Of a stretch of 64,000 nt of DNA, positions 14,001 through 38,119 are shown in pieces. The stretch covers positions 1 through 64,000 of the forward strand of contig NZ_WUEH01000011.1 of NCBI RefSeq assembly GCF_010468615.1. Reading direction: 5' to 3'. The translations under genes and the position numbers were made by a program. Positions within the stretch are counted from its first letter, which is position 1; each line of letters opens with the position of its first letter. The DNA comes from Pseudodesulfovibrio sp. JC047. Its GTDB lineage: Bacteria; Desulfobacterota; Desulfovibrionia; Desulfovibrionales; Desulfovibrionaceae. The notes below the pieces were generated by a model. The model was not told the DNA's origin, ran no database searches, and saw nothing but the letters and a program-made list of their open reading frames with translations.

Positions 14001-14260
14001 GTATGGAGCACAAAGAAGCTGTCATCGAAGCCACGCGAACTCGATTGCGGCCAATCTACATGTCCGCGACAACCTCGATTTTTGGTATGCTTCCGCTTGC
14101 CGTGGCCCCCGGGCCTGGTTCGGAGCTTTATCGAGGACTTGGGTCCGTCGTACTCGGCGGATTGGCTTTGTCCACGGTCTTTACCGTGTTCGTCATTCCC
14201 GCATTGCTCATGTTTGTGATCGGAATGGAAGAAGTCGGCAGCAGAAAAGGAATGGAATAA
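11096..14260 (+). CDS. RND-family efflux permease (AcrB/HAE1-like)
   Basis: A 1054-residue inner-membrane transporter with the duplicated RND plan: an N-terminal membrane helix (VAVLVGVILVTMFGVVALL), a large periplasmic porter loop, helices 2-6, a second loop, and a C-terminal helix bundle. The proton-relay helix reads GMLVDNAIVVLENI, so the second Asp of the AcrB pair is Asn here, as in many HAE1 relatives. The periplasmic start (YQLSPDVTEPVITVTTSW) is typical of drug/organic exporters rather than metal exporters. It exports substrates taken from the periplasm or outer leaflet, driven by protons. It forms an operon with the adaptor and probably the MarR gene. A repeat with hairpins begins about 10 bases after its stop. 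Confidence 0.95.
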   Translation: MDIVGTAIRKPVAVLVGVILVTMFGVVALLSLPYQLSPDVTEPVITVTTSWTGATPYEMERDVIEEQEKVLKGIPGLTKMESSNYNSLSELTLKFEIGTEIDRALLRVSNKLDEVPDYPDDVDRPIISATGASTSPVIWMLLKGLPGNDADVTTYMTFFENEIRQYIERVPGVADLFMGGGREDEMHIVVDPTKLASYNLTVTELMTVLQKENVSVAAGTLGVGRRDFRIRTPAEFKSIDDIKSVVITSSGQFRVTLGDVATVSRGNEKPVTVMLQRHASGIAVGVKPEPGTNILDMTNAVEAVVQDLNANVLAEKDIVLDWVYDQRPYIEGAIDLVQRNILIGSAMAILVLFIYLQSFSSTIIVAVSIPVSIIGAFIMFAAAGRSLNIVSMAGISFAVGMLVDNAIVVLENIDRHRHMGKTAFRAAYDGASEVWGAVLASTLTTVAVFLPVVFMEQEAGQLFKDIAIAVTCAIVLSLFVSVLVIPMLANRFYAIAEKKKAKNSGGPRKPAGLSIAKRVLAPLTKFGSLGAGFITMLLRLSLKNWVSRLVTVVGLTMVSVLIVWTMFPKMEYLPQGNRNFILSILIPPPGLSYEERAEIGSYIFEEVEPHFDKRIGDVPGIESLFFVSHPTIHLFGAISNEEQNAAQLIPYFMRLINSIPGMFGVALQASIFEQGLGEGRVINVDFSGDDLEQLVAAAGTMFGMTSKAIQGAQIRPIPSLELLYPEVRFHPYRDRVRAAGLTASDLGMAVDVILDGRKIGDYKEEGKKKIDLILKAASKDVRTPEELYSQLVATPKGWAVPLSSLASMENTYGVNQIRHLERRRTITLQVTPPPDMPLQSAMELIQEKLLPAVEKTGVMHGVQAKLSGAADKLTVTRDALQWNFILAIIITYLLMAALFENFIYPFIILFTVPLAGAGGFLGLWLENILIGPQALDILTMLGFVILIGVVVNNAILIVHQSLNNIREHGMEHKEAVIEATRTRLRPIYMSATTSIFGMLPLAVAPGPGSELYRGLGSVVLGGLALSTVFTVFVIPALLMFVIGMEEVGSRKGME

Positions 14261-14270
14261 TCAGGTGCCT

Positions 14271-14546
14271 TCGGCAGGACCCTTCGGGGATTTTGCCGGA
14301 GGTCCATTTCATGGAGACCAGGACGCCGTCCTGGACCTGCCAAAGGCCGAGGGCCTTTGGAATCCCATGTCGCCTGTCGGCGAGGGGTGCACGAATGCGT
14401 GAGGCTGGGCCATGGAATGGCCGCGACAAAAAAGCGCGGGAGACTTTCTTTGATCGGAAAGTTCTCCCGCGCTTTTTTGCCGCGGCCGGTTGCCGACGTT
14501 GCCTGTTTTGGAAGTCGAACGCACAGGAAATGATGGCAGCGTGTTG
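14271..14546. repeat. Intergenic repeat module A, copy 1
   Basis: A 276-base unit nearly identical to 14652-14927 and clearly related to 30729-30957. It contains a chain of hairpins: CCAGGACgccGTCCTGG (14318-14334), CCAAAGGCCgagGGCCTTTGG as two arms at 14340-14348 and 14352-14360, GGCCATggaATGGCC, and then a palindrome of about 64 bases (14421-14484) with A- and T-runs inside both arms, so it can act as a terminator in either direction. A last stem pairs CGTTGCC with GGCAGCG. Short frames cross it on both strands, but nothing supports them as genes. It lies directly 3' of the RND permease gene. Confidence 0.9.
14421..14484. terminator. Bidirectional terminator-like palindrome in module A copy 1
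   Basis: Two arms of about 30 bases around the loop TTTGATC. The inner arms are GCGCGGGAGACTTTC and GGAAAGTTCTCCCGCGC, with one bulged base. A six-base A-run lies before the stem and a six-base T-run after it, which makes U-tracts in both reading directions. It is positioned to end RND permease transcription. Confidence 0.75.
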
Positions 14547-14651
14547 AGAGATGAATTCATGAAGAGTTCTTTTTAATGGTCCCGTCCTTTTTCGCAAAGT
14601 ATATATGAAAAGTTTGGAGGCAATGTAGAAAGTACTTATCGGTGGTCTTTT

Positions 14652-14927
14652 TCGGCAGGACCCTTCGGGGAATGCTGCCAAAGGCCTATTTCATGGAGAT
14701 CAGGACGCCGTCCTGGACCTGCCAAAGGCCGAGGGCCTTTGGAATCCCATGTCGCCTGTCGGCGAGGGGTGCACGAATGCGTGAGGTTGGGCCATGGAAT
14801 GGCCGCGACAAAAAAGCGCGGGAGACTTTCTTTGATCGGAAAGTTCTCCCGCGCTTTTTTGTCGCGGCCGGTTGCCGACGCTGCCTGTTTTGGAAGTCGA
14901 GCGCACAGGAAATGATGGCAGCGTGTT
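14652..14927. repeat. Intergenic repeat module A, copy 2
   Basis: The same length as copy 1 with only scattered substitutions. It starts with TCGGCAGGACCCTTCGGGGA and ends in the CGCTGCC/GGCAGCG stem (14879-14885 with 14917-14923). The central palindrome (14801-14868) is closer to perfect than in copy 1, with GGCCGCGACAAAAAAGCGCG at the left edge mirrored at the right. About 16 bases later module B begins, so copy 2 plus B forms a composite of about 440 bases. The 105 bases between copies 1 and 2 look like a degraded start of module B (AAGAG then a T-rich run). Confidence 0.9.
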
Positions 14928-14943
14928 GGGGAATTCATTCAAG

Positions 14944-15088
14944 AAGAGCCTCTTTATTGACTATCCCTTGCGCGAAGCGCACCCAAAAAGTTTAGGAAAA
15001 GAGAGGGATTGGGGGTCTGGGGGAAAGGGGGAGAAAGAACCCTTTTCAAAGGGTTTTTCTCCCCCTTTCCCCCAGCCGCCGGAGGCAT
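14944..15088. repeat. Intergenic repeat module B, copy 1
   Basis: A 145-base unit repeated at 30976-31120. It begins AAGAGCCTCTTTATTGAC, holds a small TGCGCGAAGCGCA hairpin, and then a long stem (15017-15075) in which CTGGGGGAAAGGGGGAG pairs with CTCCCCCTTTCCCCCAG around an inner AACCC/GGGTT hairpin. It ends in AGCCGCCGGAGGCAT. It lies between the convergent RND permease and ComFB-like genes. Confidence 0.9.
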
Positions 15089-15114
15089 CTTCCCTTCCTG
15101 TCCCTCCCTTTCCC

Positions 15115-15411
15115 CTAGCGACTTGCTCGGGTGGGGTTTTCGAGGACTCTTTCGACGGCGATACGGATTTTCGAATTGATTTCGAAATCGGATAATCGGT
15201 TGGAGAGAACAATGGAACCTGACTGAGCGTATCCGGCGGGAATGAGATTGAGCGTGAGCGCGTAGATATCCTGGATATCGAGATCTTCGAAAATGAAATC
15301 CTGATAATAGTCATTGAGCAGTTGCGGAATGAGTTCAGCGACGCGTTTTTCGTTCCGATTGACGATTTTCGAAACATCGACATTGTGTATGTATACTGGT
15401 TCTTGCTGCAT
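15115..15411 (-). CDS. ComFB-family protein
   Basis: A 98-residue protein that fits the late-competence ComFB family, small alpha-helical proteins of which some bind cyclic dinucleotides. The conserved core is VAELIPQLLNDYY, then DIQDIYALTLNLIPAGYAQSG, then a long C-terminal helix (DFEINSKIRIAVERVLENP), the usual order in this family. Most relatives have extra Cys residues in the centre that are not seen here. I start at the ATG at 15411, preceded by AGGA; the frame runs open for 70 more codons upstream without a good start or family similarity. It stands alone on the minus strand, downstream of the aminotransferase terminator. Its cellular role in this organism is unknown. Confidence 0.75.
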   Translation of the reverse strand: MQQEPVYIHNVDVSKIVNRNEKRVAELIPQLLNDYYQDFIFEDLDIQDIYALTLNLIPAGYAQSGSIVLSNRLSDFEINSKIRIAVERVLENPTRASR

Positions 15412-30616: not shown

Positions 30617-30663
30617 CATCCAAAAACGTCCCGATCGCTTTTGCGTTCGGGGCGTTTTCTTGT
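30617..30663 (+). terminator. Terminator after the class V aminotransferase
   Basis: AAAACGTCCCGA pairs with TTCGGGGCGTTTT around GCTTTTGCG, ending in TTTTCTTG. It begins 23 bases past the stop. Confidence 0.8.
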
Positions 30664-30728
30664 TGTTTGTGACGGTTATTTGTCGAGGGGGAGATGTCTC
30701 CGACGGGCCTACCGGCGGTCTCCTTCGG

Positions 30729-30957
30729 AGAGACCAGGACGCTGTCCTGGACCTGCCAAAGGCCGAGGGCCTTTGGAATCCCATGTCGCCTGTCGGCGAG
30801 GGGTGCTCGAATGCGTGCGGTCGGGCCATGGAATGTCCGCGACAAAAAAGCGGGATAGCTTTCTTTTATTGGGAAGCTATCCCGCTTTTTTGTCGCGGAC
30901 GGTTGCCGACGCTGCCTGTCTGGGTGGGCGAGCGCACTGGGAATGATGGCAGCGTGG
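30729..30957. repeat. Intergenic repeat module A, copy 3 (diverged)
   Basis: It matches copies 1 and 2 from GAGACCAGGACG onward, including CCAGGACgctGTCCTGG, the CCAAAGGCC/GGCCTTTGG hairpin and the final CGCTGCC/GGCAGCG stem. The front 40 bases differ. The large palindrome (30836-30900) has changed sequence but stayed paired: the stem is GCGGGATAGCTTTC with GGAAGCTATCCCGC, and the base of the stem is GTCC/GGAC instead of GGCC/GGCC. A-runs and T-runs are kept. Module B follows after about 18 bases, as behind copy 2. Confidence 0.9.
30836..30900. terminator. Bidirectional terminator-like palindrome in module A copy 3
   Basis: Arms of 29 bases with 27 matching, around a short T-rich loop. Six As before and six Ts after the GC-rich core give U-tracts in both directions. 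It lies between the convergent aminotransferase and Pmp3-like genes. Confidence 0.75.
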
Positions 30958-30975
30958 TCTTTGTGTTTTGTTTGT

Positions 30976-31120
30976 AAGAGCCTCTTTGTTGACCACCCCT
31001 TGCGCGAAGCGCACCCAAAAAGTTTAGGAAAAGAGGAGGATAGGGGGTCTGGGGGAAAGGGAGAGAAAGAACCCTTTTCAAAGGGTTTGTCTCTCCCTTT
31101 CCCCCAGTCGCCGAAGGCAT
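30976..31120. repeat. Intergenic repeat module B, copy 2
   Basis: The same 145-base layout as 14944-15088: AAGAGCCTCTTTGTTGAC, the TGCGCGAAGCGCA hairpin, a long stem, and an end of AGTCGCCGAAGGCAT. In the long stem GGGAGAG pairs with CTCTCCC where the other copy has GGGGGAG with CTCCCCC, so a pair changed on both sides. The unit ends four bases before the stop of the Pmp3-like gene on the opposite strand. Confidence 0.9.
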
Positions 31121-37888: not shown

Positions 37889-38119
37889 GTGCGATGTGAA
37901 GGCAAGGTGACATGGTTTAACGAGCAGAAAGGGTTTGGATTCATTGTTGATGAAAACGGACAGGATTTTTTTGTTCATTATACCGAAATCATGCGTGAAG
38001 GGTTTCAAACCCTGGAGCCTGGTGAACGGGTGACCTTTGGTTGTATCGACGAGGAAAACGGTCCCAAGGCGGTTGAAGTCCGTCTGAAAAACGACATTTC
38101 CCCGTCGATGTTTTTATAA
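37889..38119 (+). CDS. Cold-shock (CspA-like) protein
   Basis: A 76-residue single cold-shock domain, the normal size. RNP1 is KGFGFI (in FNEQKGFGFI) and RNP2 is FFVHYTEI; the GERVTFG and GPKAVEVRL strands follow. It binds single-stranded RNA/DNA and prevents RNA secondary structure. I choose the GTG start at 37889 because GGAGG lies five bases before it and the length then fits; ATG codons at 37853 and 37877 would add unlikely N-terminal residues. The gene converges with the MoeA fusion gene, with only one base between their ends. A GAATGA/TCATTC hairpin lies upstream (37802-37834). Confidence 0.92.
   Translation: MRCEGKVTWFNEQKGFGFIVDENGQDFFVHYTEIMREGFQTLEPGERVTFGCIDEENGPKAVEVRLKNDISPSMFL

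Follow-up and report, generated by a model that had tools for sequence, protein, structure and literature searches.

A dispersed hairpin repeat of Desulfovibrionaceae, probably a non-autonomous mosaic element carrying a putative shared two-strand terminator

Among the closest described systems are the REP/BIME elements, dispersed hairpin repeats that form mosaic arrays and occupy mostly unidirectional and convergent gaps between genes (in the available portion of PMC3733652), and the uptake-sequence terminators, in which a dispersed repeat takes a terminator role and which are built on words of 9-11 nt present in at least 1000 copies (in the available portion of PMC1852404). Bidirectional Rho-independent terminators are of another kind, with a GC-rich stem, an A tract before it and a T tract after it, between convergent genes. 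The BOX elements of pneumococcus are, like the sequence reported here, modular dispersed intergenic repeats, the likeness being one of description. Our repeat shows dispersed copies, a right-end motif, empty sites in relatives, convergent location and paired evolution of its stems, and we consider it, with moderate confidence, to be a non-autonomous mosaic dispersed DNA repeat of the Desulfovibrionaceae, intermediate between BIMEs and MITEs, that carries a shared two-strand terminator, the palindrome P4.

The window, that is, the whole stretch of 64,000 nucleotides analysed from contig NZ_WUEH01000011.1 of Pseudodesulfovibrio sp. JC047, holds three copies of what a first-pass annotation had called module A, and BLAST locates all of them (14271-14560, 14652-14938 and 30712-30956) where two near copies after a pump gene and a diverged third at 30.7 kb had been described. 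Copies 1 and 2 are 94% identical, with a start-to-start spacing of 382, copy 3 being diverged; the first two are flanked by a convergent AcrB-type pump gene and ComFB-like gene, and the third by convergent class-V aminotransferase and Pmp3-like genes. The chain of hairpins seen in them is borne out by whole-copy folding, which covered copies 1 and 3 and found both far better than shuffles (-149.7 kcal/mol, z -7.6, and -150.6 kcal/mol, z -8.9, respectively; 0 of 200 shuffles equal in either case), with an extra hairpin preceding P1 in copy 1. P4 folded alone on the plus strand gave z-scores of -8.6, -10.0 and -14.0 for copies 1, 2 and 3, and of -9.5 on the minus strand of copy 1, and the big stem of copy 3 does differ in sequence with its pairing kept (GCGGGATAGC/GCTATCCCGC, and GTCC/GGAC). 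Module A is not a stand-alone unit: it is the left part only of an element that runs on into a reverse-strand block (Table 1), and the two blocks in the window are 92% identical. Matches were scored with R1, a covariance model of the 84-nt core built from 35 copies (alignment A1, taking in 35 of the 43 listed places, the others left out for a different P1 or a cut sequence, and one locus, L116, put back); its match to copy 1, at 14303-14386, scores 100.9 bits.

Table 1. Parts of the repeat and neighbouring features, by position in the window
Feature	Position	Strand	Remarks
P1, copy 1	14318-14334	+	CCAGGAC-GCC-GTCCTGG, sequence
P2, copy 1	14340-14360	+	CCAAAGGCC-GAG-GGCCTTTGG, then AATCCC
P3, copy 1	14370-14383	+	TCGCC-TGTC-GGCGA
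P4, copy 1	14419-14487	unstranded	long palindrome, A6/T6 tracts; putative bidirectional intrinsic terminator of AcrB-type pump gene and ComFB-like gene
P5, copy 1	14496-14542	+	ACGTTGCC ... GGCAGCGT, preceded by GGTTGCCG
Core P1-P3, copy 2 (tandem duplicate, unit 382 bp)	14685-14768	+	R1 98.1 bits
P4, copy 2	14801-14869	unstranded	palindrome, fold
Reverse-strand block after copy 2	14944-15088	-	other half of composite; right end CCGCCGGAGGCAT at 15076-15088
Resident simple terminator, aminotransferase gene	30622-30659	+	kept upstream of insert; ends read by eye
Insert at 30.7-kb locus	30694-31120	unstranded	from ATGTCTCCGACGG to TCGCCGAAGGCAT, exact left end uncertain
Core P1-P3, copy 3	30719-30802	+	R1 106.8 bits
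P4, copy 3	30835-30900	unstranded	covarying big stem, A6/T6 tracts
P5, copy 3	30909-30955	+	
Reverse-strand block, copy 3	30976-31120	-	ends in TCGCCGAAGGCAT

The order within the composite is an inverted end motif, one or more small hairpins, P1, P2, GAATCCC, P3, a spacer and P4, after which many copies continue with GGTTGCC[ACG]ACGCC and P5, the reverse-strand block and the other end. GAATCCC is invariant in all 35 aligned copies, the spacer between P3 and P4 is most often 30-50 nt long, and the sequence of P4 varies by lineage and by locus; the GGTTGCC[ACG]ACGCC/P5 motif was seen by eye at 23 of 27 listed places, the other four being chance matches. The sets compared were 40 of 47 rows in JC047 (4 duplicates and 3 weak rows dropped) and 77 of 98 in other genomes (8 duplicates, 12 weaker second hits and 1 own-genome row dropped). 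The whole mosaic measures about 250-840 nt, its right end being CCGCCGGAGGCAT or similar; where both end motifs are seen, the span has a median of 481 nt in JC047 (14 of 40 copies) and of 447 nt elsewhere (29 of 77), with a range of 252-844. The ends are imperfectly inverted, of the ATGCCTCCGGCGG type: the right-end motif accompanies 35 of 40 JC047 copies (1 of 40 shuffled regions) and 36 of 77 in other genomes (3 in shuffled), and the left-end motif 16 of 40 and 59 of 77, respectively. Tandem repetition of end modules was read by eye at L139 (G000:C3:74200-78300), where the right-end module stands five times within one gap, and at L022 and L035 of G000, where a left-end unit of about 30 bp, of the GACCAGCCCTACCGGG.GTC.C.TTC.G.G type, is repeated about three times before the core.

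Within 250 nt past the core, a palindrome scoring at least 15 is found in 52 of 76 other-genome copies and in 0 of 65 shuffled ones; 47 of the 52 start within 90 nt of the core, and the remaining five, further on, probably sit in the reverse-strand block. Their arms carry A4/T4 tracts in 29 cases and lack them in 23 (the GTCCCGAAG type, for example), so that P4-like palindromes would not always be intrinsic terminators. JC047 itself reaches this score in only 10 of 38 copies: in four the palindrome stands 32 nt past the core and is P4 (the window copies and that of C38), and in the other six it belongs to the reverse-strand block. The best palindrome in 14 other rows is of a small TGTAAAAAAT-ATTTTTTACA type (by eye). 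A second type of P4, GTCCCGAA...TTCGGGAC or close to it, without a T tract, is present at L078, L086, L209, L210, L222, L223 and L235; its inner stem is wholly different between L222 and L223, of one genome, and it is nearly absent in L110.

The covariance-model search that the first-pass annotation had suggested gives many matches in the genus, mostly at convergent gene ends. R1 hits occur in 36 of 36 genus genomes, 1-91 in each at E <= 0.01, counts that may be low with 127 candidates scored per genome. At E <= 0.001, and with 30 candidates scored in each, 41 of the 150 genomes drawn from the order have hits: 14 of the same genus, G000 included, 25 of other genera of the family, and two of another family with a single weak match each. 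The P1 palindrome recurs without mismatch in at least 38 places in JC047, among the matches listed, and beyond the window this genome carries one more full copy, the fourth, at C38:3676-3925, as well as two partial copies and one truncated by the end of a contig (C10:1-182). Contig C10 starts inside an element copy, and a partial core (102-176) lies near the start of C38; since contig ends thus fall within or near the element, the repeat probably breaks the assembly, and the copy number of JC047 is a lower bound.

No named family had been recognised by inspection, and in fact no Rfam model matches the element at its gathering score; on the window the search gave, above gathering, only a tRNA elsewhere. 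At E up to 1, five loci gave 82 rows, 78 of them of microRNA models and all below gathering, for which reason the hairpin models found at relaxed E-values were dropped as an identity. A tRNA scan of L099 found none, and a phage origin was set aside with 0 exact matches of the core pattern in viral contigs. A literature search, covering sources outside the subscription journals, found no description of the repeat, and the available portions of PMC2817692 and PMC2267715 contain no Desulfo- mention.

As regards gene context, none of the 117 copies shares more than 30 nt with a called gene, and the location at convergent gene ends that had been anticipated is that of 77 of the 97 copies with both neighbours called, 19 being codirectional and 1 divergent. 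In the window, 3 of the 30 gaps of at least 60 bp are convergent, two of which, by the gene list of an earlier caller, hold the element. Separately, at 37890-38119 a cold-shock-like protein can be read by eye in an apparent convergent gap left empty by a simple caller. Neighbours were taken from a third gene caller, trained with a codon-position rule, which places a same-strand gene upstream of 69 of 77 other-genome and 35 of 40 JC047 copies; two earlier callers gave 45 and 41 of 77, and 31 and 34 of 40, having been led astray by spurious and antisense ORFs, as was a further early one, which covered JC047 alone.

Such an arrangement brings to mind a structured 3′ UTR or small RNA acting in sense, either an mRNA stabiliser or a trans-acting ncRNA, which we judge improbable. 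It is true that, where an other-genome copy comes after a gene on its own strand (69 copies), the core lies a median of 32 nt past the stop codon, a terminator-like hairpin intervening in only 4 and none in 65. However, the sense orientation follows of itself wherever the gap is convergent, and of the copies in codirectional gaps 12 have the core in sense and 7 in antisense, so that orientation is no evidence for an RNA function, and its use as proof of one has been withdrawn.

A sign of insertion comes from the 30.7-kb locus, at whose orthologous site four relatives (G024, G034, G035 and G028) have the convergent pair about 60-80 nt apart with one simple terminator, where JC047 has a simple terminator plus some 427 bp (30694-31120) absent from those four; G025 has a different neighbour at this site, and G001 has two opposed cores at the aminotransferase locus. 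When JC047 was compared with 1.2 Mb of G025, 9 of 38 loci matched on both sides (the three window copies shared one name, and one of them was tested). At six of these nine the gap in G025 is 92-227 nt without the element (by eye), as against 526-1001 nt in JC047; the other three show a different neighbour or a changed region, one being the pump locus. The simple terminator beside the insert is kept in JC047 at L029, L139 and L030 and is gone at L023 and L132 (by eye). To explain the empty sites as deletions in the relatives would need several independent precise losses.

As to the means of movement, no consistent target-site duplication was seen in the few rows inspected by eye, and a Y1_Tnp search found no cognate transposase. 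Y1_Tnp is found in 17 of the 36 genus genomes and not detected in 19, with medians of 17 R1 hits with it and 20 without, which is no relation to copy number, and RAYT mobilisation is thus rejected. A weak terminator-arm match near a Y1 transposase on C3 falls within what appears by eye to be a phage-like gene, and was set aside as a chance match. At L097 (G000:C3:11060-13288), two Y1 transposase genes, one with an internal stop, flank an element that looks IS3-like by eye.

The empty sites, the right-end motif and the tandem end modules (by eye) would also suit a purely selfish BIME/MITE-like repeat, for which convergent gaps are where it does least harm, whose palindromes would serve the host in no way, and whose near-perfect pairing and paired changes would come from template switching at DNA hairpins; we hold this to be unlikely, for reasons that lie in the palindrome itself. 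In agreement with the bidirectional-terminator role suggested for the repeat, P4 is, to judge from its sequence, terminator-like on both strands: the window copies present a stable stem and then a U tract on either strand, and P4 looks like a bidirectional intrinsic terminator. A simple terminator scan of 14200-15200 gave no site, shuffles expecting 2.4, probably because the long P4 exceeds the limits of the scan. In JC047, 11 of 31 copies have a resident terminator-like hairpin before the core, and P4 would be redundant there.

The pump locus of the relatives allows the parts of the element to be compared as they decay. Seven genomes (G006, G028, G002, G021, G033, G007 and G017) have a short simple terminator only (by eye), and four (G024, G035, G025 and G034) an apparent decayed copy, which R1 matches at E 0.058 in G024 and G035 and not at all up to E 1 in G025 and G034. 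In P4, 19 of 22 Watson-Crick pairs are kept in G024 and 18 of 21 in G025, whereas in the core the figures fall to 8 of 19 in G024 (P1 3/6, P2 4/9, P3 1/4) and 5 of 15 in G025 (P1 2/7, P2 3/8, P3 none alignable), or 14 of 19 and 7 of 15 when G-U is counted; in G034 the aligned P4 has 8 of 19 paired, a GCGGGATA/TATCCCGC stem before a T-run being readable. This better keeping of P4 favours it as the part maintained on both strands. It speaks against the selfish repeat, since blind mending should treat neighbouring hairpins alike, as do the A/T tracts kept inside otherwise changing stems in the 29 of 52 palindromes mentioned above, and the loss of Watson-Crick pairing in the core at this one locus speaks against an RNA acting in sense. 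In favour of the latter, the leaders of the decayed copies fold better in sense (in G024, -79.1 as against -47.2 antisense), with G-U pairs in the core; this bias may be due to RNA selection or to a C-to-T mutational bias of the sense strand, between which three loci cannot decide.

The paired changes on which the first-pass annotation had rested its case are plentiful, and the structure is indeed kept through them, core and P4 stems being nearly always paired. In the core, both partners vary in 10 of 21 pairs, and the share of paired cells, 96.2%, is matched by 0 of 500 shuffles and is far above that of the slid controls; as many further pair types are seen in 49 of 500 shuffles. For P4, with pair counts made by anchoring at the stem ends, in sets from a detector favouring Watson-Crick pairs and among related copies whose changes are not independent events, group A (20 copies of the GCGAT type, several genomes) has 94.3% of cells paired and 59 double as against 3 single-sided changes, group B (10 paralogues of MC-06) 97.7% and 53 against 1, and group C (12 copies, own lineage and orthologues) 94.4% and 70 against 1, with 24, 5 and 12 unpaired cells, respectively. 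The outer 14 bp of group A have 40 double and 3 single-sided changes; as many doubly changed pairs occur there in 71 of 500 shuffles.

From such covariation, and from the invariant GAATCCC, selection on an RNA could be argued, and the paired changes as such had been so read. That inference finds no support: G-U pairs are rare in the aligned stems, and sense and antisense folding do not differ significantly over 117 copies, which leaves the mRNA-stabiliser and ncRNA roles with the better sense folding of decayed copies at one locus. In the aligned stems the paired changes seem seldom to pass through G-U. Such a pattern would follow from a requirement for pairing on both strands, or from the copying of one arm onto the other; selection acting on a single RNA strand would not by itself produce it. 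Of the further pair types, 9 of 20, 9 of 23 and 6 of 20 in the P4 groups and 3 of 11 in the core (27-45%) are of the AU-GC kind, as against 79% of switches in Bacillus cereus terminators (in the available portion of PMC5381666), a comparison of small numbers over unlike evolutionary distances. Template switching is reported to be able to generate stems, with a less clear part in the upkeep of short ones (in the available portion of PMC8794818), and this, with the low AU-GC share and the few single-sided changes in P4, also counts in favour of the selfish repeat. Whole folds, of the core with 30 nt on each side, contain 7-9% G-U pairs on either strand, above the aligned stems. A control detector that takes any short-loop hairpin before a T-run, which need not be P4, counted G-U in 23 of 300 pairs in codirectional terminators, 9 of 239 in convergent gaps without the element and 68 of 554 in those with it, and this last figure is hard to square with a simple depletion of G-U. 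The paired changes agree with two-strand selection or with template switching.

The near-perfect palindromes and few G-U pairs could, moreover, be taken for a DNA-level signal, whether a cruciform, a nucleoid or gyrase site or an uptake sequence, and the first two copies happen to have a ComFB-family gene as a neighbour. Nevertheless, the sequence of P4 is unconserved between lineages, which leaves no sequence-specific signal there, and 1-91 core hits per genome are far below the at least 1000 copies of uptake sequences (in the available portion of PMC1852404), so that we regard such a signal as very improbable.

Returning to the mosaic repeat with a shared terminator, we infer both its mobility and the terminator role, and the following steps could have taken place. 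A full copy has, between imperfect inverted ends, a one-strand hairpin core (P1-P2-GAATCCC-P3), then P4, then a block of hairpins on the reverse strand. It would spread by copying into intergenic DNA, surviving mainly between convergent genes because it would end transcription both ways and be harmful elsewhere. In the subtype of the window, the GC-rich stem of P4 with its A6/T6 flanks would provide the same hairpin and U tract on either strand and could thus serve as the shared terminator of the gene pair; at the pump locus no other is visible, and at 30.7 kb it would be additional to the resident one. This two-strand duty would disfavour G-U pairs, in such a way that the stems would change by whole-pair replacement, possibly aided by template switching between the arms. 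A bolder version, which we put forward tentatively, is that of a family-wide mobile repeat whose hypervariable two-strand terminator takes over the termination of convergent pairs after insertion, its stem changing by whole-pair replacement through arm-to-arm template switching and not by G-U steps. If true, it would supply many recent events, in nature, on which template switching and selection could be weighed against each other. In any case, a structured repeat present in all 36 genus genomes searched and without an Rfam entry is now accounted for, and it supplies an actual example of covariation from which selection on a single RNA strand does not necessarily follow; its dozens of paired changes, with the empty sites and decayed orthologues, are material on which two-strand, RNA and template-switching models predict differently.

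Compared with the known systems, the repeat has the extragenic location of REP/BIME, convergent or codirectional gaps holding 96 of the 97 copies, but its unit is an 84-nt three-hairpin core within a composite of about 250-840 nt, only 39 of 117 copies have a GTAG tag (CTAC on the core strand) immediately ahead of the core, and the association with RAYT (Y1_Tnp) is not found here, with 17 of 36 genomes having it. Like a MITE, it is short, has no gene called inside and shows insertion polymorphism with empty sites, and its inverted end motifs, both seen in 14 of 40 and 29 of 77 copies, may correspond to those of a MITE, though they are imperfect and modular; the Y1_Tnp search gave no cognate transposase, and the few rows inspected showed no clear target-site duplication. 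The stem of P4 departs from bidirectional Rho-independent terminators in running 9-14 pairs past the A/T tracts, with paired changes there too, and in being carried on a dispersed repeat. This last property it shares with the uptake-sequence terminators, whose short fixed words contrast with a P4 that has no fixed sequence.
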